From: Streptomyces sp. NBC_00190
GTDB lineage: Bacteria > Actinomycetota > Actinomycetes > Streptomycetales > Streptomycetaceae
Direction: 5' to 3'
Length of the DNA: 64,000 bases
Assembly: GCF_036203305.1 (NCBI RefSeq)
Contig: NZ_CP108131.1
Location: 992,001 to 1,056,000 of the forward strand
This document shows, in pieces, positions 796 through 64,000 of the stretch (position 1 is the first letter of the stretch; each line of letters starts with the position of its first letter). The translations under genes were made by a program, and so were the position numbers. The notes under the pieces were generated by a model that was given only the letters and a program-made list of their open reading frames with translations, did not search any database and was not told the origin of the DNA.

Positions 796-2826
796 TCAGC
801 CCGACGGGGTGAGCCGGTCCCACAGGAAGGTGTGCACCAGGGCCTCGTTGAAGGCGGTCTGCCCGTGGTCGGTGGCGCCCGCGTGGCCGCCGCCGAGGTG
901 CTCGTGGAACAGGACGGGATGCCCGAACTCGCGCAGCCGGGCGGCCATCTTGCGGGCATGGCCGGGGTGGACGCGGTCGTCGCGGGTCGAGGTGAGCAGC
1001 AGCAGGGGCGGGTACGGGGCCCCCTCGGCCCGGACCTGGTGGTACGGGGAGATCCGCTCCAGGTGGGGCCGGTCGGCCGGGCTGTCCGGGTCCCCGTACT
1101 CGGCGATCCAGCTGGCGCCGGCCAGCAGCTTGTGGAAGCGGAGCATGTCCAGCAGCGGCACGTGGGCGACGACCGCGCCGAACAGCTCGGGGTCGCGGGT
1201 GAGCATCGCGCCCATGAGGAGGCCGCCGTTGCTGCCGCCCTCGATGCCCAGCTGGGCAGGGGTGGTGATGTCGCGGGCGACGAGGTCCCGGGCGACGGCG
1301 GCGAAGTCCTCGTACGCGCGGACCCGGTTCGCGCCCAGGGCCGCCTTGTGCCAGCTCGGCCCGTACTCGTGCCCGCCGCGGATGCCCGCGACGACGTAGG
1401 TGCCGCCGCGCGCGAGCCAGGCCCGGCCGGTGACCGCTCTGTACTGGGGGACCATGGAGATCTCGAAGCCGCCGTACCCGTACAGCAGGGTGGGCCCGGG
1501 GCCCGGGCGGTCCTCGGGACCGACGACGAAGTACGGCACCCGCGTGCCGTCCGCGGAGGTCGCGAAATACTGGCGTACGGCCAGACCCGCGGTGTCGAAC
1601 AGCGCAGGGCCCTGCTTGAGGCTCTCGCTGTCGCCGCCCGCGGTGCCACGGTAGAGGGTGGACGGCTGGAGGAAGCCGGAGACGTTCAGGAAGTACTCGT
1701 CGCTCACGTCCGGATCGGTGCAGGTGACGGAGGCCGTCGACAGCGGCGGTACGCCCGGCAGCGGTGCGCGGCTCCAGCCGTCGGGGCCGGGGGTGAGGAG
1801 CTCCATCCGGGAGGAGACGTCGGCGCGGGTGGTGAGGACGAGGTGGTGGCGGGTCCAGCTGTAGCTGCCGAGCGCGGTGCGCTCGTCCGGGGTGAACAGC
1901 ACCTCGGCCTCCCGCTCCCCCGCCAGGAAGGAGTCGAAGCCGAAGGCGAGCAGGGAGCCGGCGGGGTGGCCGAGCCACGGCGACTTCGTGGTGACGGTCA
2001 GCCAGTTCCGGTACACGGAGGCGCTCGCGTCGTCCGGTACATCGATCTTCAGCGGCGGGCCGTCGCTGCCGTCGGTCCGCGGCGGGAGGAGGAACAGCTC
2101 CTGGTTCCAGAAGTCGATCTGCCGGTGGACGAAGTCCCGCTCGAAGCCGGGCGTGTCGTCGCGCCAGGCAGTGGCGGAGAGGTCCGAGGGGCGGCCCTCG
2201 TAGACCGGTTCCGCCTCGGTGAGCGGGGTGCCGCGCCGCCAGCGGCGTACCTGGAGGGGATAACCGGACCCGGACATCGAACCGGGACCGAAGTCCGTCC
2301 CGATCCACACCCGGTCGCGGTCGATCCACCCGATCCGGGTCTTGGCCTCCGCGACCTCGAACCCGCCCTCGACGAACTCCAGGGCGGCAAGGTCGAACTC
2401 GCGCACGACGCAGGCGTCCGCGCCGTCCCGCGACAGCATGACCAGGGCGTGGCGGTGCTCGGGGGCCAGGACGCTGCTGCCCGCCCAGGCCCACTTCTCC
2501 CCCTCCGCCTCGGCCAGGGCGTCCAGGTCCAGGACGGGCTCCCAGGCGGGCCGGTCCTTGCGGTACTCCTCCAGCGTGGTGCGCCGCCAGAGTCCGCGGA
2601 CGTGCTCGGCGTCCTGCCAGAAGTTGTAGAGGTGGCCGCCACGACGGGTGACGTAGGGGATCCGGCCGTCGTCGTCGAGGACCTCGCGGATCCCGCGCTC
2701 CAGCTCCTTGAACCCGGGCACCTCGGCCAGCGCGGCCACGGTTTCACCGTTGCGCTCGCGCACCCAGTCGAGGGCCGTCTCGCCCGAGATGTCTTCCAGC
2801 CAGAGGTACGGGTCTTCATCGCTCAT
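796..2826 (-). CDS. Prolyl oligopeptidase family serine peptidase (S9A)
   Basis: A 676-residue protein of the usual length for S9A prolyl endopeptidases, which cleave short peptides after proline. It opens with the family signature DPYLWLEDISGETALDWV. The first ~400 residues are the seven-bladed propeller, followed by an alpha/beta-hydrolase domain. The nucleophile is Ser532 in GGSNGG, with Asp616/617 in STRDDRVHP and His648 in GGGHAG, so the triad looks intact. No signal peptide is seen, so it is probably cytoplasmic. It starts at an ATG 40 bp from the end of the AI-2E-type gene, which has the same orientation, and may be co-transcribed with it. Confidence 0.92.
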   Translation of the reverse strand: MSDEDPYLWLEDISGETALDWVRERNGETVAALAEVPGFKELERGIREVLDDDGRIPYVTRRGGHLYNFWQDAEHVRGLWRRTTLEEYRKDRPAWEPVLDLDALAEAEGEKWAWAGSSVLAPEHRHALVMLSRDGADACVVREFDLAALEFVEGGFEVAEAKTRIGWIDRDRVWIGTDFGPGSMSGSGYPLQVRRWRRGTPLTEAEPVYEGRPSDLSATAWRDDTPGFERDFVHRQIDFWNQELFLLPPRTDGSDGPPLKIDVPDDASASVYRNWLTVTTKSPWLGHPAGSLLAFGFDSFLAGEREAEVLFTPDERTALGSYSWTRHHLVLTTRADVSSRMELLTPGPDGWSRAPLPGVPPLSTASVTCTDPDVSDEYFLNVSGFLQPSTLYRGTAGGDSESLKQGPALFDTAGLAVRQYFATSADGTRVPYFVVGPEDRPGPGPTLLYGYGGFEISMVPQYRAVTGRAWLARGGTYVVAGIRGGHEYGPSWHKAALGANRVRAYEDFAAVARDLVARDITTPAQLGIEGGSNGGLLMGAMLTRDPELFGAVVAHVPLLDMLRFHKLLAGASWIAEYGDPDSPADRPHLERISPYHQVRAEGAPYPPLLLLTSTRDDRVHPGHARKMAARLREFGHPVLFHEHLGGGHAGATDHGQTAFNEALVHTFLWDRLTPSG

Positions 2827-2866
2827 CCGCCGATTGTGCAGGACGCGGACCCCTGGTCAGGAAACG

Positions 2867-3922
2867 TCAGGAAACGTCGACCGCCCCGAGGCGGGCGGCG
2901 CGCAGGGCGGTGCGCACCGACCAGATCACCGAGACCAGCGGTACGGCGACGACCGCGCCCACCACTCCGGCCGCGATGGCGCCCGCGCTGACCGAGATCG
3001 CCACCACCAAGGGGTGCAGCCGGACCGCCCAGCTCATCACCAGCGGATGCAGCAGGTGCCCCTCGATCTGGCCGATGACCACGATCAGAGCGATCACCAC
3101 ACCCGCGATGAGCGGTCCCTTCGAGGCCAGGGCGACCACCGCGGCGACCGCGAGCGCCACCGGCGAGCCGACCAGGGGGACGAACGCCGCGAGGAACTCC
3201 AGCAGTGCCAGCGGAACGGCCAGCGGGACCCCCAGGAGGTACAGGGCCACCCCGACGAGGACGGCGTTCGTCGCCGCGATCAGCACGATCCCGTGGGTGT
3301 AGCCGGTGAACGTGGCCCATGCCGCGCGGCCTGCGACCATCACGGGCTCGCGCGCCGCGGCGGGCAGCTGCGCGCAGAACCACGACCACTGGCGGGCTCC
3401 GCCGTACAGGAAGAGGACGGCGGAGAAGACGGCGAGGGCCAGGACGGCGAGGACCCGCACCAGCTGTCCGGCTCCGCTGAGCGCCGTACTGAGCAGGGTC
3501 GAGCGGTGGCTCGACAGGTACGCGCCGATGCGGGACTCGATGTTCGTCAGCGCTCCGGGATTCAGCCGGAAGGGGGGCCGCTCCAGCCACTCCTCGATGC
3601 TGCCGAGGCCCTCGCGGAACTCCCGGACCAGGGTGGTGCTCTCCCCGGCCACCGCCTCGCCCACCAGCGCCAGCCCGCCCAGCAGCAGCACCGCGCCCCC
3701 GAGCAGACAGACGGCGACCGCGAGGGACCGGGGCAGTGAGCGCCCCAGCCATCGGGTGGGGGCGCCGAGCAGCGCCGTGATGACGAGGCCCAGGAAGAGC
3801 GCCACCGTGATCTCGTGGAACCGCCCCAGCACGACGAAGACCGCGTAGACGGCGGCGCCGACGACCAGCAGGCGCCAGGCGTACGACGCGGCCGTACGCA
3901 GGAACGAGGACACCGGCGGCAT
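2867..3922 (-). CDS. AI-2E family transporter (PerM/TqsA-like permease)
   Basis: A 351-residue polytopic membrane protein starting MPPVSSFLRTAASYAWRLLV. Pairs of hydrophobic helices lie at the N-terminus (VVGAAVYAVFVVLG, ITVALFLGLVITALLG), then a soluble loop around residues 110-170, then five or more helices. The conserved region near the C-terminus (FVPLVGSPVALAVAAVVAL, QIEGHLLHPLVMSWAVRLHPLVV) is typical of PF01594. These permeases export signal molecules or ions; the substrate is unknown here. The frame stays open further upstream to 4180, but that extension has no family similarity, so I start at the ATG at 3922. It is divergent from the MFS gene at 4038. Confidence 0.88.
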   Translation of the reverse strand: MPPVSSFLRTAASYAWRLLVVGAAVYAVFVVLGRFHEITVALFLGLVITALLGAPTRWLGRSLPRSLAVAVCLLGGAVLLLGGLALVGEAVAGESTTLVREFREGLGSIEEWLERPPFRLNPGALTNIESRIGAYLSSHRSTLLSTALSGAGQLVRVLAVLALAVFSAVLFLYGGARQWSWFCAQLPAAAREPVMVAGRAAWATFTGYTHGIVLIAATNAVLVGVALYLLGVPLAVPLALLEFLAAFVPLVGSPVALAVAAVVALASKGPLIAGVVIALIVVIGQIEGHLLHPLVMSWAVRLHPLVVAISVSAGAIAAGVVGAVVAVPLVSVIWSVRTALRAARLGAVDVS

Positions 3923-4037: not shown

Positions 4038-5336
4038 GTGAGTACATCCCGATGGGCCTCGGTCCTGCCCGATCTCGCCCCCTGGCGGTCCAGCCGGGAC
4101 TTCCGGCTGCTGTTCGTCCAGGGGACGGTCACGTTCTTCGGCTCGTTCATGGCGATGATCGCGCTGCCGCTGCAGATCAAGCACCTGACGGACTCGCCGC
4201 TGGCGGTCGGCGCGATGGGCGCGGTGGAACTGGTTCCGCTGGTGGTCTGCGGGCTGTACGGGGGCGCCCTCGCCGACGCCGTCGACCGGCGCCGGCTGAT
4301 CCTGCTGACCGAGGCCGGGCTCGGGGTGCTCGCGCTGGTGCTGCTGGTGAACTCGGTTCTGCCGAGCCCGCTGCTGTGGCCGCTGTACGTGGTGGCGGCC
4401 GGTGTGTCGGCGCTGACCGGGCTGCAGCGGCCCGCCCTGGACTCGCTGATGGCCCGGATCGTGCCGCACGACCAGCTGACCGCCGCTGCCGCGCTGGGCG
4501 GGCTGCGCTACCAGTTCGGCGCGATCGCCGGTCCGGCGCTGGCCGGCCTGGTCGTCGCCTACGCCGGCTACGCCCCGGCCTACTGCGTCACCGTCGCGGG
4601 CTTCCTCGTCTCCGTGCTGCTGTGCCTGCGGCTCGCACCGGCTCCGCCCGTGCGGGGCGCCGACCGTCCTTCGCTGCGTGCGATCGCCGAGGGCGCGCGG
4701 TACGCGTGGAGCCGTCCGGTGCTGCTCGGCACCTACGCCGTCGACCTGGCGGCGATGTTCTTCGCCTTCCCGAACGCGATCTTCCCGTTCCTCGCGGACG
4801 AGCTCGACGCGGTGTGGGCGCTCGGGTTCATGTACGCGGCGGGCGCGGTCGGCTCGCTGGTGCTGGGGCTGACCAGCGGCTGGGTGTCGCGGGTACGCCG
4901 GCACGGGCTGCTGGTGGTGTGCGGCGCCGCGGTCTGGGGCCTGGCGATCGCGGCCGCGGGCTGGTCCACCGGCATCTGGCCGGTGCTGGTGTGCCTCGCG
5001 GTGGCGGGCGCGGGCGACATGCTGAGCGGGCTGGGCCGGGCCACGATCTGGAACCAGACGATCCCCGAGGAGCTGCGGGGCCGACTCGCCGGCATCGAGG
5101 TGCTCTCGTACAGCGTCGGCCCGCAGCTCGGTCAGGTACGGGCCGGCACGATGGCCGGGTGGACCGGCACCCGGGCGGCCTTCTGGAGCGGCGGTCTGGC
5201 CTGCGTGGCGTCGGTGGCCGCACTGGCCGCACTGCTGCCGAAGCTGATCTCCTACGACGCGGACACCGACGAGGACGCCCTGCGCCGCCGCAGTGCACAG
5301 GAGGCACGGTCCCGGGAGACGGCGTCCGCGGCGTGA
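4038..5336 (+). CDS. MFS transporter, EntS-like drug/siderophore exporter
   Basis: A 432-residue protein with about 12 hydrophobic segments and the MFS signature GGALADAVDRRRLIL after the second helix. The layout (short N-terminus, DFRLLFVQGTVTFFGSFMAM, and the motif ALTGLQRPALDSLMARIV) matches the MFS_3/EntS group that exports siderophores or antibiotics. It uses a GTG start divergent from the AI-2E-type gene, with 115 bp between them. No ligand can be inferred from context, since no siderophore gene is adjacent. Confidence 0.85.
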   Translation: MSTSRWASVLPDLAPWRSSRDFRLLFVQGTVTFFGSFMAMIALPLQIKHLTDSPLAVGAMGAVELVPLVVCGLYGGALADAVDRRRLILLTEAGLGVLALVLLVNSVLPSPLLWPLYVVAAGVSALTGLQRPALDSLMARIVPHDQLTAAAALGGLRYQFGAIAGPALAGLVVAYAGYAPAYCVTVAGFLVSVLLCLRLAPAPPVRGADRPSLRAIAEGARYAWSRPVLLGTYAVDLAAMFFAFPNAIFPFLADELDAVWALGFMYAAGAVGSLVLGLTSGWVSRVRRHGLLVVCGAAVWGLAIAAAGWSTGIWPVLVCLAVAGAGDMLSGLGRATIWNQTIPEELRGRLAGIEVLSYSVGPQLGQVRAGTMAGWTGTRAAFWSGGLACVASVAALAALLPKLISYDADTDEDALRRRSAQEARSRETASAA

Positions 5337-58877: not shown

Positions 58878-59876
58878 ATGGGGAACGAACGCCGACTTCT
58901 CGCTCTCGTCATCTGCCTGGTCCTGGGCAGCGGGCTCACCGCCGCCGTGCTCGGGGCCTCGCGAGCGGCCGGACCCCACGCGGGGATGACGACGGCCGGT
59001 CCGGCCCCTTCCGACTACGTGGACATATCGGAGGTTCCGCGCACCCCCGGCCCGGCGGCCGCCGCGGGCCCCGACGCCTCGGCCGGCTCGGTGGTCGTGC
59101 AATGCGGCCGAAACGAGCAGGGCCACTACAACGAGGACAACCTGGTGGTCTCGCCCGGGCTGCGGGCGGGCGCCCACCACACGCACGCGTACGTGGGGAA
59201 CCTCTCCACGGACGCGATGTCGACCGACGCCTCCCTGGACGCGGCCGCCACCAGTTGCCCGGGCGGCGACCGGTCGACGTACTACTGGCCGGTCCTGCGC
59301 CGTCCGGACCGGCCGGGCACGCGTCCGCACGAGAGCTCGGCCAGCCACGGCAACACCGGCGAGATCCTGCCGGAGGCCTCGGTACGGGTGGAATTCCGCG
59401 GCAGTCCCGTGAGCAAAGTGGTGGCGATGCCCCGGTTCCTGCGGGCGATCACCGGCGACGCCGTCGCGTACACGGCGGACAGCGACGCCGACGTCCGGGC
59501 CCGCTGGGGCTGTTCCGGCTCCCCCGACCGGCCCACCACCCGCTATCCGCGCTGCCCCGCGGGAGAGCGCGTCACCCGCACCCTCACCTTCCCGAGCTGC
59601 TGGAACGGCCTCGACACCATCAGCGCCGGACACCGCTCGCACCTGCGGTTCCCCTCGGCGAAGGGCGTATGCCCGCAGGACACCTTCCCCGTGCCCGAGC
59701 TCCGGATCTCCCTGGCCTACGAGGTCCCCGCGGGGGTGCCCGTCGCGCTCGACTCCTTCCCCGAGCAGCGGCACAGCCCGAAGACGGACCACGCGATGTT
59801 CGTGAACGCGATGACCGACCCGCAGATGGGCGCCGTCGTCGACTGCCTCAACTCGGGCCGTACCTGCCGGATGTGA
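58878..59876 (+). CDS. Secreted DUF1996 domain protein
   Basis: A 332-residue protein with an N-terminal membrane or signal segment (RRLLALVICLVLGSGLTAAV). The DUF1996 domain contains the characteristic CGRNEQGHYNEDNLVVSPGL, AGAHHTHAYVGN, TLTFPSCWNGLDTISAGHRS and a C-terminal Cys pair. The His-His-x-His suggests metal binding. The family occurs in fungi and actinobacteria without known function. The start is the ATG at 58878; the longer frame from 58629 lacks sense. Confidence 0.87.
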   Translation: MGNERRLLALVICLVLGSGLTAAVLGASRAAGPHAGMTTAGPAPSDYVDISEVPRTPGPAAAAGPDASAGSVVVQCGRNEQGHYNEDNLVVSPGLRAGAHHTHAYVGNLSTDAMSTDASLDAAATSCPGGDRSTYYWPVLRRPDRPGTRPHESSASHGNTGEILPEASVRVEFRGSPVSKVVAMPRFLRAITGDAVAYTADSDADVRARWGCSGSPDRPTTRYPRCPAGERVTRTLTFPSCWNGLDTISAGHRSHLRFPSAKGVCPQDTFPVPELRISLAYEVPAGVPVALDSFPEQRHSPKTDHAMFVNAMTDPQMGAVVDCLNSGRTCRM

Positions 59877-60012
59877 CCGGCCCACGGGAGCGGCGCCACA
59901 GGAGCGTCGCACCCGAGTGACGCACCCGAGTGACGCACGCCACATGAACCGCAGGGGCCCGGGCAGCGTGTTCCGACCGCATCACGTAAGCGAGGAAGAC
60001 GGAGAGGGTGAG

Positions 60013-60618
60013 ATGGCCGGACCACTGTGGCCCCGCACTCGGCGGGGCTCGACCGATGAGGCACTGATCAAGTCGGTGTACGAGGAGCACGGCCACGCCC
60101 TGCTCGCGTACGCCACCCGGCTGACCGGGGACCGGGCCGCCGCCGAGGATGTCGTCCAGGAGACGCTCATCCGGGCCTGGCGGCACTCCGAGGTCCTGGT
60201 CAATGGAAAGGGCTCGGTGCGCGGCTGGCTGCTGACGGTGGCCCGCAACATCATCACGGACCGGTACCGGGCCAAGGCGGCCCGGCCGCCGGAGGTCTCC
60301 GGGGCTTCGGCCGCTCCCCCGGTGGAGGCGGACCACGCCGACTCCGTGGTGGACACGATGACGGTCCTCGGGGCTCTCGACCAGCTCTCTCCGGAACACC
60401 GGGACGTCCTGAAGGAGTTGTACTACCGGCAACTCAGCGTCGCGGAGGCCGCGGACAGCCTCGGTATCCCGGCGGGGACGGTCAAGTCTCGTTCGCACTA
60501 CGCGCTCAAGGCGCTGCGCGACGTCTTCCGGGACAGCGGCATCAAGGACAACGGCGATGGCAGACGAGCGGGCAGGCCGCCCCAGCAGCCCGCCGGACTG
60601 CGTGAGGTGGTGGCATGA
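60013..60618 (+). CDS. ECF RNA polymerase sigma factor (SigL/SigK-like group)
   Basis: A 201-residue ECF sigma factor: region 2 (LIKSVYEEHGHALLAYATRL, AEDVVQETLIRAWRH, VRGWLLTVARNIITDRYR) and region 4 (LSPEHRDVLKELYYRQLSVA, EAADSLGIPAGTVKSRSHYA). It has GAGAGGG just before the ATG at 60013. Its stop overlaps the start of a zinc anti-sigma gene by 4 nt, so its activity should be controlled by that membrane protein, perhaps in response to redox change. Confidence 0.93.
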   Translation: MAGPLWPRTRRGSTDEALIKSVYEEHGHALLAYATRLTGDRAAAEDVVQETLIRAWRHSEVLVNGKGSVRGWLLTVARNIITDRYRAKAARPPEVSGASAAPPVEADHADSVVDTMTVLGALDQLSPEHRDVLKELYYRQLSVAEAADSLGIPAGTVKSRSHYALKALRDVFRDSGIKDNGDGRRAGRPPQQPAGLREVVA

Positions 60619-61337
60619 ACCGGCAGCGGCACAAGGAGGAACTGCTCGGTCCGTACGTGCTCGGCGTCCTGGACGCGGAGGAGCTCCGCCGGGTCGAGGA
60701 ACACATGAGCGGATGCGTGCAGTGCCGGGAGGAGGTGGCCGCGTTGCGCGAGATGGAAGCGGCACTGGGTGAGGTGCCCGACGAGGCGTTCTTCGACGGA
60801 CCGCCGCAGGGCGGGGACCTGTTGCTCCAGCGCACGCTGCGGGAGATGCGCGGCGAGCGCGACCGCGCGCGCCGGCGCGGCCTGGGAATCGCCGGGCTGG
60901 CCGCGGCGGCCTCACTGGCCGCCGTGTTCTGGGCCGGTACGCAGATGGGGGCGGGAGATCCGGATGTGGTGGCCCTGCCTCCGCAGCCTTCCGTGACGGC
61001 GTCGGCGGACCCCTCGCAAGGCCCCGGGACCAAGAACCTCTCGGCGACCGATCCGGCCACGGGCACGCGGATGACCGTACGGATGACTCCCGCCATGAAG
61101 TGGGTACGGGTGCACGCCGCGGTCACCGGGCTGCCACCGGGCGAGCGGTGCCGGCTGGTCGTCGTCGCCAAGGACGGTACGCGCTCCACCGCCGGCAGCT
61201 GGGTCGTGGGCAGCGCGGAGAACGGCGAGGGCAAGGGCGCGTCCCTGGACGGCTCGGCGGCCGTCGCCCCGGCGGACGTCAAGGCGATCATGGTCGAGAA
61301 CGAGGCGGGCAGGGCGTTCGTGTCCGTACCGGTCTGA
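60615..61337 (+). CDS. Zinc-binding (ZAS) transmembrane anti-sigma factor
   Basis: A 240-residue anti-sigma factor. The N-terminal ZAS domain has H-x3-C-x2-C in EEHMSGCVQCREE (His30, Cys34, Cys37 approximately) after LLGPYVLGVLDAEELRRVEE. One membrane helix spans ~95-113 (LGIAGLAAAASLAAVFWAG). The extracellular C-terminal part (RskA-like, ~130-240) has MTVRMTPAMKWVRVHAAVTG and GSWVVGS. It sequesters the sigma factor encoded just upstream. Confidence 0.92.
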   Translation: MNRQRHKEELLGPYVLGVLDAEELRRVEEHMSGCVQCREEVAALREMEAALGEVPDEAFFDGPPQGGDLLLQRTLREMRGERDRARRRGLGIAGLAAAASLAAVFWAGTQMGAGDPDVVALPPQPSVTASADPSQGPGTKNLSATDPATGTRMTVRMTPAMKWVRVHAAVTGLPPGERCRLVVVAKDGTRSTAGSWVVGSAENGEGKGASLDGSAAVAPADVKAIMVENEAGRAFVSVPV

Positions 61338-61388
61338 CCGGAGCGCGGCGCGGACCGCAGCGGACCGCGGCGCGCCTGACGGCGTGAC

Positions 61389-61421
61389 GGAGCCCGGGAG
61401 CATATCCAGCTCCCGGGCTCC
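61389..61421. terminator. Terminator between the anti-sigma gene and the tRNA-like locus
   Basis: Perfect 13-bp arms GGAGCCCGGGAGC (61389-61401) and GCTCCCGGGCTCC (61409-61421), followed by TGTTT. It lies 51 bp past the anti-sigma stop and probably also ends transcripts coming from the tRNA-like genes on the other strand. Confidence 0.85.
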
Positions 61422-61462
61422 TGTTTGCCACCCAATTGCGCACACCGGCGGCGTTTAAGAGT

Positions 61463-61564
61463 CGCGGATCATTCTTAGATCGACGTGTTCTGCCTTTGAA
61501 CTACCGCGCCACGAGGAGAGGCGCAGAGGGGACTTGAACCCCCATCCATCGATGATCGTCCGCG
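61463..61564 (-). tRNA. Circularly permuted tRNA-like gene 2 (apparent anticodon CUA)
   Basis: On the minus strand the 3' half comes first: anticodon-stem strand CGATG (61551-61547), short variable region GAT, T arm GGGGG-TTCAAGT-CCCCT, acceptor strand CTGCGCC, discriminator T (61519). Eight bases later the 5' half begins: acceptor GGCGCGG (61510-61504), TA, D arm GTTC-AAAGGCA-GAAC, A26, anticodon-stem strand CGTCG. Acceptor (7 bp, one G-U), D (4 bp), anticodon (5 bp, one G-U) and T stems all form. The 5' half continues ATCTAAGA; with U33 fixed the loop is ATCTAAG, anticodon CUA. The outer flanks pair further (ATGATC with GATCAT, CGCG with CGCG past a 3-nt bulge), as expected for a permuted precursor. 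No CCA is encoded. The short variable region is atypical. Confidence 0.62.
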
Positions 61565-61613
61565 CTCGGTCGATCCGGTGTTCGGCGGCGAATACTGAGA
61601 CTGGAGCAAGAAT

Positions 61614-61706
61614 CTGAGATTAAGGGGCCGCCTCTACCAGCTTGGGCCACCCCGGCTCGCAATGCCGGGGGAGGGATTCGAACCCCCAACTGACACCCCT
61701 GTTCAG
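61614..61706 (-). tRNA. Circularly permuted tRNA-like gene 1
   Basis: On the minus strand the 3' half comes first: GGGGT (61699-61695), variable GTCAGTT, T arm GGGGG-TTCGAAT-CCCTC, acceptor strand CCCCGGC (61670-61664), discriminator A. Six bases (TTGCGA) later the 5' half starts: acceptor GCCGGGG (61656-61650), TG, D arm GCC-N12-GGC with GG in the loop, G26, anticodon-stem strand GCCCC, then TTAATC. The acceptor stem is a perfect 7 bp; the anticodon stem pairs GCCCC with GGGGT (one G-U). Flanks TCAG (61617-61614) and CTGA (61706-61703) pair beyond the loop. No matching 5' acceptor strand lies upstream, so a normal linear tRNA is not possible. The anticodon is ambiguous because the loop junction is unknown (loop begins TTAAT). 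Confidence 0.62.
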
Positions 61707-61726
61707 CTTCAACATCAGTTTCAGCT

Positions 61727-61789
61727 TGCGCTCTCGCGCACCCCCCGCGCTCGCGGGGGGCGATCTCGGGGCTACCTGAACAGGTAGCC
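61727..61789 (-). other. Three consecutive hairpins between the conserved gene and the tRNA-like array
   Basis: From the minus-strand 5' side: GGCTACCTG-tt-CAGGTAGCC (61770-61789), which contains the TAG stop of the gene; CCCCCCGC-GAGC-GCGGGGGG (61741-61760); and TGCGC-GAGA-GCGCA (61727-61740), with a GNRA-type loop. There is no U-run. They could be processing signals separating mRNA from the tRNA precursor, or a terminator. Confidence 0.6.
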
Positions 61790-62503
61790 GAACACCGCGT
61801 CCCCGACCCGCTGGTCGGTGACCTCGGCGCTGTTGGCCTCCTCGCGGGCGAACTTGACGGCCTGCTGGAGCTTCTCCACGCGGTCGAGCAGCTCGTTCAC
61901 CCGCCGGGCCGGGAGCGCGCCGGAGAACTTCACCGTCGTCCAGTAACCGACCGGGACGTCCTCGTAGTAGACCTCGACCTGCGCCGGGTGCTTCTCGGTC
62001 GCCTCGGCCTTGACGTGGTTGCGCGGCACCTTCTTGGTGCGGATCGTGCGCACCGGGTCCGTCTTCCAGGAGTCCGTGGAGGGGTCCAGGTTCCAGGACT
62101 CGGACGCGTCCAGTACCGGCAGCTTCCGGACGAAGGTGTGCATGTCCGTGAGCTGCTTCTCCAGGAAGAGCAGGTAGGGCACGGGCACCTGCGCCAGCAG
62201 GACGGTGCCGTCCACGACGACGTCGGCTGCCGCGGTGCGGTTCGCCCAGTCCTTGGTCGCCGTCACGTCGAACAGCCGCGTCAGGGTGCCGGCCGTGGCC
62301 CGCAGCACGTCCTCCGCCTTGACCTGGACCCGCGTGGACTCGGGCGGCAGCTGCTCGCCCTCCTCGTCCTTGGGCTGGTAGGTCCGCGAGATGCCGGCCA
62401 GCAGGGCGGGCTTCTGGACGTCGTGGTGAGCCTGCGAAAGCTCCTGGAGGGACTTGGACTTGACGCCCTTTTCCACTGCGATGATCTGATTCAGCTTCGG
62501 CAC
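61772..62503 (-). CDS. Conserved actinobacterial protein of unknown function next to the tRNA-like array
   Basis: A 243-residue soluble protein starting MPKLNQIIAVEKGVKSKSLQ. I recognise it as a conserved actinobacterial family without known function. Visible features: helical N-terminus with AHHDVQKPALLAGISRTYQP, VTATKDWANRTAAADVVVDG, LLFLEKQLTDMHTFVRKLPV, RTIRTKKVPRNHVKAEATEK and a C-terminal helix RRVNELLDRVEKLQQAVKFA. It has many charged residues, no signal and no membrane helix. A GTG start 6 nt after a TAGGTT -10-like box suggests a leaderless mRNA. Its end is 66 bp before the tRNA-like array on the same strand, so co-transcription is likely; a role in processing or charging those RNAs is a guess. 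Confidence 0.8.
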   Translation of the reverse strand: MPKLNQIIAVEKGVKSKSLQELSQAHHDVQKPALLAGISRTYQPKDEEGEQLPPESTRVQVKAEDVLRATAGTLTRLFDVTATKDWANRTAAADVVVDGTVLLAQVPVPYLLFLEKQLTDMHTFVRKLPVLDASESWNLDPSTDSWKTDPVRTIRTKKVPRNHVKAEATEKHPAQVEVYYEDVPVGYWTTVKFSGALPARRVNELLDRVEKLQQAVKFAREEANSAEVTDQRVGDAVFGYLFR

Positions 62504-62509
62504 GCGCTG

Positions 62510-62548
62510 AACCTAACAGGCGGCGGTGCCGCCCGTATATTCGAATAT
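62510..62548 (-). promoter_or_regulatory. Leaderless promoter with overlapping palindrome for the conserved gene
   Basis: The -10-like box TAGGTT occupies plus 62510-62515 (reverse strand), 6 nt from the GTG start. The 12-bp palindrome ATATTCGAATAT (62537-62548) covers the expected -35 region and stands out as AT-rich in a GC-rich context. It may be an operator. Confidence 0.5.
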
Positions 62549-62624
62549 CGCCCGTGCGTCCCGGCGGACCGGGGCGACCGGCTTCCGACGCAGGACGATC
62601 ATCACATTGCGGTCCATGACATCC

Positions 62625-62636
62625 TGTGACGTCACA
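62625..62636. promoter_or_regulatory. Palindrome TGTGACGTCACA upstream of the ATP-grasp genes
   Basis: A perfect 12-bp palindrome 49 bp before the ATG of the first ATP-grasp gene. It has Crp-like TGTGA/TCACA arms but only a 2-bp spacer, so it is not a normal Crp site. It is a candidate operator for the ATP-grasp pair. Confidence 0.5.
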
Positions 62637-62684
62637 ACTCGCCGGACGGGATCGGCGGACGTCCGGGGAATATGGGGAAGGTCC

Positions 62685-63590
62685 ATGAGGCTCTGCTTCC
62701 TGGTGGAGGAGCACTACCGCCACGACGGCATGCCGAACGAGGTGATCGGGCAGCTCAGCGCGTGGGGGCACCAGGTCGACGTGGTGCGGCCGGGGGGCTC
62801 GCTGCTGCGCATGACGGAGGCGGTGCGGGCGGGCGCGCACGACGCCTGGGTGCTCAAGACGGTCTCCGGCGGCCCGGGGCTGACCCTGCTCGAAGCCGCG
62901 GCGGCGACCGGGATGACCACCGTCAACGACGCCCGGTCGATCCGGGGCGTACGGGACAAGGCGCTGGCCGCCGCCATCGGCCGCGCCCTGGGCCTTCCGC
63001 TGCCCCCGACGTACGCGGCGGCATGCCCCGAGCTGCTGAGGGAGATACCGGAGGCGGAGTACCCCCTCGTCGTCAAGCCGGCCGACGGGAGTTCCGGGCG
63101 GGCCGTGCACCTGGTGTCCTCACCGGAGCGGCTGGAGTCGCTGCTCCCCGTCCTCGCGGGCGAGGGCCTGCTCATCGCCCAGCCGTACGTGCCCAACTCG
63201 GGCACCGACATCAAGGTGTACGGGGTCGGCGGGGAACTGTTCGCCACCGAGCGATGCTCCCCGCTGAACCCGGACCCGTCGGTGCGCGAGCGCCGCGTGC
63301 CGCTGTCGGCGGAGGTCGCGGCGATCGCCGAACAGGTGGGAGCGGTGTACGGGCTCGACCTGTACGGGGTGGACGTACTGCTGGGTCCCGACGGGCCCGT
63401 GGTCGTCGACGTGAACGACTTCCCGAGCTTCCGTCAGGTGCCCGACGCGGCGGCGCGGGTGGCCCGGGCGGTGCTGGAGCTGGCGCGCACGGGCGGCTCC
63501 GCGCCTCCGCCCGCGGCGCCGGCGCCCCCCTACGCGCTGCCCGTCTCGATACCGGCGCAGATGTCCGCCCGGGCGGGGGACGGCGCGTGA
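62685..63590 (+). CDS. ATP-grasp domain protein (RimK-like)
   Basis: A 301-residue ATP-grasp enzyme: an N-terminal alpha/beta domain (MRLCFLVEEHYRHDGMPNEV), substrate part VNDARSIRGVRDKALAAAIG, ATP-binding VVKPADGSSGRAVHLV, and metal ligands in YGVDVLLGPDGPVVVDVNDF (Asp, Asn). Such ligases join a carboxylate to an amine or thiol through an acyl phosphate. A Pro-rich tail follows. GGGAAGG is close to the ATG at 62685. It overlaps the next ATP-grasp gene by 4 nt and is divergent from the conserved gene at 61772. Confidence 0.9.
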   Translation: MRLCFLVEEHYRHDGMPNEVIGQLSAWGHQVDVVRPGGSLLRMTEAVRAGAHDAWVLKTVSGGPGLTLLEAAAATGMTTVNDARSIRGVRDKALAAAIGRALGLPLPPTYAAACPELLREIPEAEYPLVVKPADGSSGRAVHLVSSPERLESLLPVLAGEGLLIAQPYVPNSGTDIKVYGVGGELFATERCSPLNPDPSVRERRVPLSAEVAAIAEQVGAVYGLDLYGVDVLLGPDGPVVVDVNDFPSFRQVPDAAARVARAVLELARTGGSAPPPAAPAPPYALPVSIPAQMSARAGDGA

Positions 63591-64000
63591 GGATCGGACT
63601 GATCACGCCGGAACCGGAGCATCCGCTGCTTGCGGCGACGTCCGCGCTGCTGGCGAAGGAGCACGTCGTCGATGCGCTCGACCCGGCCGGGACGGACCCC
63701 GCCGCGGCCTTGGCCGGCACGCCGCCTGCCGACGTGTACCTGCTGAAGTCGCGTACCGGGCGGGCACTGGACCTGGCGCGGGACCTGGAGCGGCGGGGCG
63801 TCCCCGTCGTCAACACCGCGGCGGCGACCGCACTGTGCCAGGACCGTACGGCGATGGCGGAACTCGCCCTGCGGGCCGGACTGCCGTTCGCCGCCACCCG
63901 CACCGTCGGCGCCCTCTCCGCATGGGCCGCCTCGGACACCGCGCTCTCCTCCCCCGTGGTGGTCAAGAGCCGGTACAGCCGCCGGGGTGACCTGGTGGCC
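63587..64000 (+). CDS. Second ATP-grasp domain protein, N-terminal part (3' end outside window)
   Basis: A GTG start at 63587 overlaps the previous stop by 4 nt. The visible 138 residues (MRIGLITPEPEHPLLAATSA, PPADVYLLKSRTGRALDLAR, VVNTAAATALCQDRTAMAEL, PVVVKSRYSRRGDLVA) repeat the layout of the upstream ATP-grasp protein, with a matching N-terminal domain and the start of the ATP-binding loop. The window ends before the catalytic part. The tandem pair may act as a complex or in successive ligations. Confidence 0.85.
   Translation, partial: MRIGLITPEPEHPLLAATSALLAKEHVVDALDPAGTDPAAALAGTPPADVYLLKSRTGRALDLARDLERRGVPVVNTAAATALCQDRTAMAELALRAGLPFAATRTVGALSAWAASDTALSSPVVVKSRYSRRGDLVA

Follow-up and report, generated by a model that had tools for sequence, protein, structure and literature searches.

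The two tRNA-like units that lie side by side on the minus strand at one locus of Streptomyces sp. NBC_00190 are probably neighboring domains of a single conserved noncoding RNA, which is tipped with circularly permuted tRNA-like modules and which, bound by a DUF7873 protein, would act as a decoy or scaffold for tRNA-handling enzymes. The units occupy positions 61608-61709 (unit A) and 61458-61566 (unit B) of the window, i.e., the whole 64,000-nucleotide stretch of DNA that was analyzed (contig NZ_CP108131.1, positions 992,001 to 1,056,000). In each of them the T arm comes first, followed by the acceptor 3′ strand, a loop, the acceptor 5′ strand, and the D arm. Unit A combines the T arm GGGGG-TTCGAAT-CCCTC, an acceptor made of CCCCGGC and GCCGGGG around a 7-nt loop, and a D arm with GG; the corresponding parts of unit B are GGGGG-TTCAAGT-CCCCT, CTGCGCC and GGCGCGG around a 9-nt loop, and again a D arm with GG. 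A sequence-only reading of the window had described two back-to-back circularly permuted tRNA folds at 61463..61706, with acceptor loops of 6 and 8 nt. Both folds were found there and are complete, with the loops recounted as above; strand and full extent had to be corrected, the full element being on the minus strand, covering approximately 61390-61764, and adjoined by an upstream gene at 61772-62503 (Table 1).

Table 1. Features of the locus (window coordinates) and the support for each
Feature	Position	Strand	Support
DUF7873 gene (PF25283, 243 aa, GTG start), predicted protein partner of the RNA	61772..62503	-	Pfam, 403.8 bits (cutoff 27)
G+C-rich hairpin following the stop codon of DUF7873, either terminator-like or a hairpin at the 5′ end of the RNA	61739..61764	-	Sequence; relatives keep a hairpin there (alignment, by eye)
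Small hairpin UGCGC-GAGA-GCGCA ahead of domain A	61727..61740	-	RNAalifold, 38 loci
Domain A, long hairpin whose outer stem bears tRNA-like module A	61594..61725	-	RNAalifold; own-versus-swapped duplex test
tRNA-like module A, circularly permuted, 7-nt acceptor loop	61631..61687	-	Sequence; Rfam YrlA, 31.2 bits, E 0.00068
Domain B, long hairpin bearing module B, its conserved strands being AUCGACYG and YUUAAAYG	61427..61589	-	Covariation; match of model R1
tRNA-like module B, circularly permuted, 9-nt acceptor loop	61485..61543	-	Sequence, covariation; Rfam YrlA, 30.9 bits, E 0.0008
Hairpin that may terminate the RNA and the convergent zf-HC2 gene	61390..61420	.	Inverted repeat; kept in 47-locus alignment (by eye)

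Conservation and gene order make it likely that both units sit on one transcript. The window also carries, at 59917-61334, a sigma-70-type (ECF-like) gene and then a zf-HC2 (anti-sigma-like) gene, in convergent orientation to the RNA. Each of the two genes has relatives in the fetched stretch of 15 of 80 bacterial DUF7873 loci, so the gene neighborhood is not fixed. CUGAARR repeats located 5′ of module A were considered as protein coding, a reading that was abandoned because single-base insertions distinguish the relatives in this part of the alignment.

Covariation was analyzed in a sequence alignment of 30 domain B sequences, with members coming from loci that showed two modules in the module scan; for alignment A5, 30 nonredundant bacterial loci were picked, with the window put in place of L133, which was left out. 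In the 30 sequences, 96.6% of cells paired, compared to 83.1% in shuffles, and pairing fell to 38-46% when the partners were slid by 1 to 3 columns. Covariation between the halves, which the sequence-only reading proposed to look for in homologous loci, was evident as double-sided, compensatory changes at 22 of the 35 pairs, a number reached by none of 500 shuffles; helix 2, the outer stem past the anticodon-stem position, had such changes at 7 of 9 pairs. The same reading had argued that the two fits could hardly arise by chance. As the descriptor found a module in only 4 of 400 dinucleotide shuffles for each of two region sets, and homologues keep the units with compensatory changes, chance is excluded. 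Folding of the single sequences gave a weak signal for unit A (z = −0.53, 58 of 200 shuffles folding as well or better), and a z score of −2.53 for unit B (2 of 200 shuffles).

The strands outside the modules were examined in the two-module viral loci, thinned to 38 unlike ones, with L172 and L180 excluded for misplaced modules. Paired with their own partners, the outer strands of module A gave −27.5 kcal/mol, versus −21.4 kcal/mol when swapped between loci, and those of module B −31.0 versus −22.5 kcal/mol, differences reached in none of 20,000 permutations in either case; the three cross-combinations of outer strands were barely better than swapped (849 to 1,462 of 20,000 permutations). The domain B strand motifs were also recognizable in these viral loci, TTAAAYG in 33 of 38 and TCRA, a short form of the other strand, in 32 of 38. 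Furthermore, the modules retain a tertiary contact of tRNA. At the Levitt pair 15-48, which played no part in module selection, 147 modules had A-U in 122 cases, G-C in 21, A-C in 2, and G-U and C-C in 1 each (Fisher P = 4.5e-22 for the 146 modules with A or G at position 15, a value that ignores sequence kinship). Together with the stem covariation, this contact makes it very likely that the modules fold as tRNA-like L shapes. The pair table that accompanies the CCA counts below gives no independent evidence of covariation, since its modules were preselected for pairing.

A permuted module is of a known kind, and what appears to be new here is the dual-module, DUF7873-linked RNA. The sequence-only reading knew of nothing comparable in bacteria. 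Yet YrlA, the tRNA-like module of bacterial Y RNAs (Rfam RF02553, PDB 6CU1), is described in the available part of PMC11472068 as a circular permutation of tRNA, so permuted tRNA folds were already known in bacteria. As far as the excerpts of PMC8394870 and PMC11472068 go, the likeness includes the permutation, a closed acceptor loop, the D, T, and acceptor arms, and outer strands that form a stem; the pair in the window has both the permuted tRNA-like module and a basal stem made from strands outside it. According to the excerpts, DusA and TruB use YrlA as a substrate, and PNPase is bound by its module (PMC8394870); it has also been suggested that YrlA might inhibit an anticodon nuclease competitively (PMC7790460, in part). 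Both window modules matched the Rfam YrlA model with E values below 0.001 (Table 1) and missed its gathering cutoff of 69 bits, which is a weak test because the genome's own Rsr-linked copy, at 57.7 bits, does not reach it either. The DUF7873-linked RNA nevertheless differs from YrlA in having two tandem modules and conserved motifs of its own, and in not lying beside Rsr. One further YrlA match in the genome, at 2817220-2817332 (L002, 1501-1613), was rejected as false, as it consists of two tandem tRNA-Asn genes.

Of 101 Streptomyces genomes searched at the DNA level, 47 contained the region, and DUF7873 lies upstream of the RNA at all 47 loci. For domain B we also built a covariance model, R1, from the window sequence plus 29 bacterial loci, including one plasmid locus; it matches the window, itself part of the training set, at 61447-61589. 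R1 matched 50 of the 101 genomes, over the whole model in 49 and nearly so in G010 (model positions 18-129), and exactly these 50 genomes bear DUF7873. Because half of the sample lacks the pair, it is not essential in Streptomyces. By the module descriptor, 36 of the 47 loci have both modules and 11 have one; according to the alignment, it is module A that is missing from the 11, mostly replaced by a short hairpin between the conserved stem strands (as judged from the loci other than L045). One Streptomyces locus, L039 in genome G069, has a longer insert in place of module A. DUF7873 and the RNA pair were also encountered on plasmid SNP1 of Streptomyces nigrescens HEK616 (L107).

Partial R1 matches alone placed eight further Streptomyces genomes above the threshold. 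Those over model positions 27-125, at eight loci (L255 to L262), all proved to be tandem tRNA-Asn genes, and two of the shorter ones (L263 and L264) contained one tRNA each by ARAGORN; model positions 43-104 also match the Rsr-linked modules. False matches of R1 and YrlA arise because the 3′ half of one tRNA-Asn gene, taken with the 5′ half of the gene after it, resembles a permuted unit, and these identical genes in tandem, at L002 as at L255 to L262, are what speaks for reading the window units as decayed tandem tRNA genes whose adjacent halves merely appear rearranged. We give this reading next to no credence: the window locus has no outer halves, and bacterial genomes and phages alike preserve the fold, with compensatory changes.

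That the units are true permuted tRNA genes, as the sequence-only reading proposed, maturing by joining at the anticodon loop, is very unlikely. The permuted tRNA genes of red algae and archaea do resemble them in placing the 3′ half first, with an intervening stretch between the halves; in the part of PMC3978253 available, these genes contain a bulge-helix-bulge motif and give rise to mature tRNA, which in algae is reached via a circular intermediate. ARAGORN called no tRNA in the window as written. When the halves were rejoined, as had been suggested, it did call a tRNA, for 169 of 324 joins with unit A and 240 of 324 with unit B (raw counts without a shuffled control), but the accepted joins carry many different anticodons, of which none stands out, and no single join was favored. 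Unlike in the algal and archaeal genes, the would-be anticodon-loop strands belong to long covarying stems, in which the ends that a permuted tRNA must join are predicted to be locked, and module A was not found in the 11 relatives mentioned above. There are already 76 ordinary tRNA matches in the genome, all of them away from the pair.

A different fate for the modules would be cleavage of the acceptor loop, for example by RNase P, into two-piece tRNA-like RNAs with a free, chargeable CCA, like the permuted two-piece tmRNA, in which the acceptor halves are likewise swapped with a piece between them. We regard this as quite improbable. In its favor, many two-module loci encode CCA after the discriminator, at the start of the acceptor loop: for module A this holds in 45 of the 72 bacterial loci and 20 of the 44 viral ones. 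In module B, CCA follows the discriminator in 18 of the 44 viral loci. However, module A of the window has ATT where ACCA is expected, and its module B also lacks CCA; the acceptor loops of the scanned modules are mostly 6 to 8 nt. Unlike two-piece tmRNA, the RNA has two tRNA-like modules, and no tmRNA family of Rfam matched window positions 59000-64000 up to an E value of 1.

The likeness to YrlA raises the question of whether the units are strict Y RNAs that bind a Ro/Rsr protein encoded elsewhere and link it to an exonuclease, for example PNPase. The shared permuted module and the YrlA matches are consistent with this, as is the presence in the genome of two TROVE (Ro/Rsr) genes, one near 5.674 Mb with its own Y RNAs beside it and the second at 683 kb. 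A TROVE match was also detected in 32 of the 47 pair-bearing genomes. In the remaining 15, none was detected with a model that matched only about positions 278-354, a short stretch, so remote Ro proteins could be missed; in 10 of these 15, those among the 61 genomes searched, no Rsr-linked Y RNA match was found either. Moreover, there is no TROVE gene beside the DUF7873-linked pair, and around the second TROVE gene (L006; 683090 in the genome), the descriptor detected no permuted module within 1.5 kb on either side. The cluster beside the Rsr gene (L001, approximately 1490-1860; genome positions 5674723-5675093) contains three Y-RNA-like units, of which the middle one is apparently without the tRNA-like module.

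The two kinds of RNA can also be told apart by the strands of their basal stems. From the L001 stretch we defined two Rsr motifs, which come from this analysis and not from a paper. The 5′ motif, GGTGCGCAGG, was present in 22 of 25 Rsr-linked loci and in 1 of 160 DUF7873-linked regions, and the 3′ basal-stem motif, which is less sharp, in 15 of 25 and 7 of 160, respectively; this comparison was not blind, as the Rsr-linked loci had been found by likeness to the same L001 stretch, and it covered both strands of about 3 kb at the Rsr-linked loci versus one strand of 800 nt in the DUF7873 regions. Neither motif occurred in the 47 pair regions of the genus. With the motif missing from the DUF7873-linked RNA, with both window matches below the Rfam cutoff, and with pair-bearing genomes in which TROVE was not detected, we consider the strict Y RNA assignment unlikely.

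Beyond Streptomyces, we looked for DUF7873 in bacterial genomes, viral contigs, and phage records. In an even sample of the phylum, 6 of 296 genomes had the gene, all of them Streptomyces, and in a sample of the class it was found in 37 of 394 genomes and 9 of 137 genera. Thirty of these 37 loci went into one module scan and six into another, the match in G561 being fragmentary; the further class loci, several of them in the same genus, had at least one permuted module downstream in 30 of 30 checked. Within 800 nt downstream of DUF7873, all of the best 80 of 544 bacterial contigs had a module (two in 72, one in 8), as did 70 of the best 80 of 319 viral contigs (two in 44, one in 26, none in 10). 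Control searches upstream found modules in 0 of 80 bacterial and 6 of 80 viral contigs, and antisense searches in 1 of each. Among 50,697 phage records, 73 had DUF7873, in phages named after Vibrio, Gordonia, Rhizobium, Klebsiella, Serratia, Arthrobacter, Rhodococcus, and cyanobacteria; nine of these records were fetched, and a module lay downstream of the gene in eight. The ninth is the cyanophage record L146 (Microcoleus phage), where no permuted module was found after the DUF7873 relative; the stretch after it contains, at 4950-5159, a HEARO RNA (129 bits). A full-length R1 match with an E value below 1e-7 was obtained in 69 of the best 80 viral contigs and 4 of the 9 phage records and was not found in the other 11 and 5. 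Several of the phage DUF7873 genes lie within tRNA gene clusters, and a tRNA gene was present in the fetched stretch at 46 of the best 80 viral loci versus 11 of the best 80 bacterial loci.

The gene that accompanies the RNA encodes a protein with PF25283 as its sole Pfam match, belonging to a family with at least 7,062 relatives among 7,999 scored candidates. The literature searched makes no mention of DUF7873, and four DUF7873 proteins had no match in PHROGs or NCBIfam. The best of five predicted structures had a pLDDT of 92.4 and a pTM of 0.76; three of the five exceeded a pLDDT of 91, and the other two reached 72.4 and 58.6. Against solved chains and known folds the model gave no match at an E value of 0.001 or better. 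Among viral structures it resembled a protein of the uncultured phage cr118_1 (A0A7M1RW91; probability 1.00, TM score 0.44, E 9e-3), which, judging from the model, is possibly a remote DUF7873 relative. Gene order, co-occurrence, and the conserved RNA motifs suggest that DUF7873 likely binds the RNA.

Such binding could also be a matter of the gene's own control, with DUF7873 recognizing the tRNA-like region at the 3′ end of its mRNA as a cis element for autoregulation. Operators that mimic tRNA and are bound by their own gene product are a known mode of control. The RNA follows the gene at 47 of 47 genus loci, and by eye the alignment shows no conserved promoter between them, as would be expected of such an element. 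We find this rather unlikely, however. Two of the 69 viral contigs with a full-length R1 match depart from the usual order. In L217 the RNA (4451-4592 and 4599-4752) and DUF7873 are on different strands, the RNA about 1.2 kb downstream, and in L225 the RNA lies upstream of the gene (RNA at 2171-2228 and 2278-2419, gene match at 2501-3226). The length of the RNA, its two domains, and its closing hairpins suggest a stable product, and a 3′ position would be unusual for this form of control.

We return to the reading as a noncoding RNA with DUF7873 as its partner. Each domain would be a long hairpin that carries a circularly permuted tRNA-like module at its tip, and DUF7873 is predicted to hold the stems of the RNA, with the AUCGACYG and YUUAAAYG strands of domain B as the predicted site of contact. 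The modules may attract readers of the tRNA elbow and acceptor, such as nucleases, modification enzymes, and exonucleases of the PNPase type, so that the RNA would act as a decoy, scaffold, or tether and not as a source of tRNA, a role for which YrlA offers a precedent by analogy. In phages, where the pair is often near tRNA genes, the likely benefit would be protection or management of the tRNA pool during infection, and the Streptomyces pair would be the chromosomal form of the same device. We hold it fairly probable that DUF7873 and its RNA constitute a new, Ro-independent class of RNP with two tRNA mimics, by which phages would probably protect tRNAs against anticodon nucleases or decay enzymes of the host, and that streptomycetes and other actinobacteria took the pair into their chromosomes.

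Direct support comes from the fold and its covariation, including the 15-48 contact, from the lasting linkage to DUF7873 in bacteria and phages, and from the presence of the pair in genomes with no detectable Ro gene. Several findings count against it. The CCA in the loop of module A, at the frequencies given above, would be superfluous for a pure decoy. Gene order is not absolute, as L217 and L225 demonstrate. There are the gaps in R1 matches among viral contigs and phage records, together with L146, which lacks a module. The DUF7873 model matches no known fold, two of its five versions having low pLDDT, and half of the Streptomyces sample is without the pair.

Phages are already known to carry Ro-type systems. 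Excerpts of PMC12282133, PMC7824862, and PMC7765460 describe an Rsr with putative Y RNAs in Listeria phage CKA15 and TROVE or Ro60-related proteins in jumbo phages. The pair resembles these systems in including a phage-borne gene for a putative RNA-binding protein, which in CKA15 is located near abundant small RNAs, and differs from them in its protein, which is of the Ro type there and DUF7873 here. For Y RNAs in mycobacteriophages, PMC12282133, in the part available, cites an earlier bacterial Y RNA paper, so single members of the present group may have been listed before; the literature searched contained no report of a dual-module, Ro-independent RNA tied to DUF7873. If our reading is true, permuted tRNA mimicry is not tied to Ro/Rsr, and a second, uncharacterized protein family is accompanied by a dual tRNA-mimic RNA of its own in actinobacterial genomes and in phages of very different hosts. 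This would provide a lead to the function of DUF7873, a family of thousands, and a candidate way by which phages protect or manage tRNAs.

Two additional observations were made in the viral sequences. The viral contig L210 has three extra R1 matches at 4597-5101, beyond the usual pair at 3324-3577. In the tRNA cluster of Gordonia phage Phendrix (L142, 2072-2600), we detected a tmRNA match of 89 bits (cutoff 47) that is absent from the feature table of the record.
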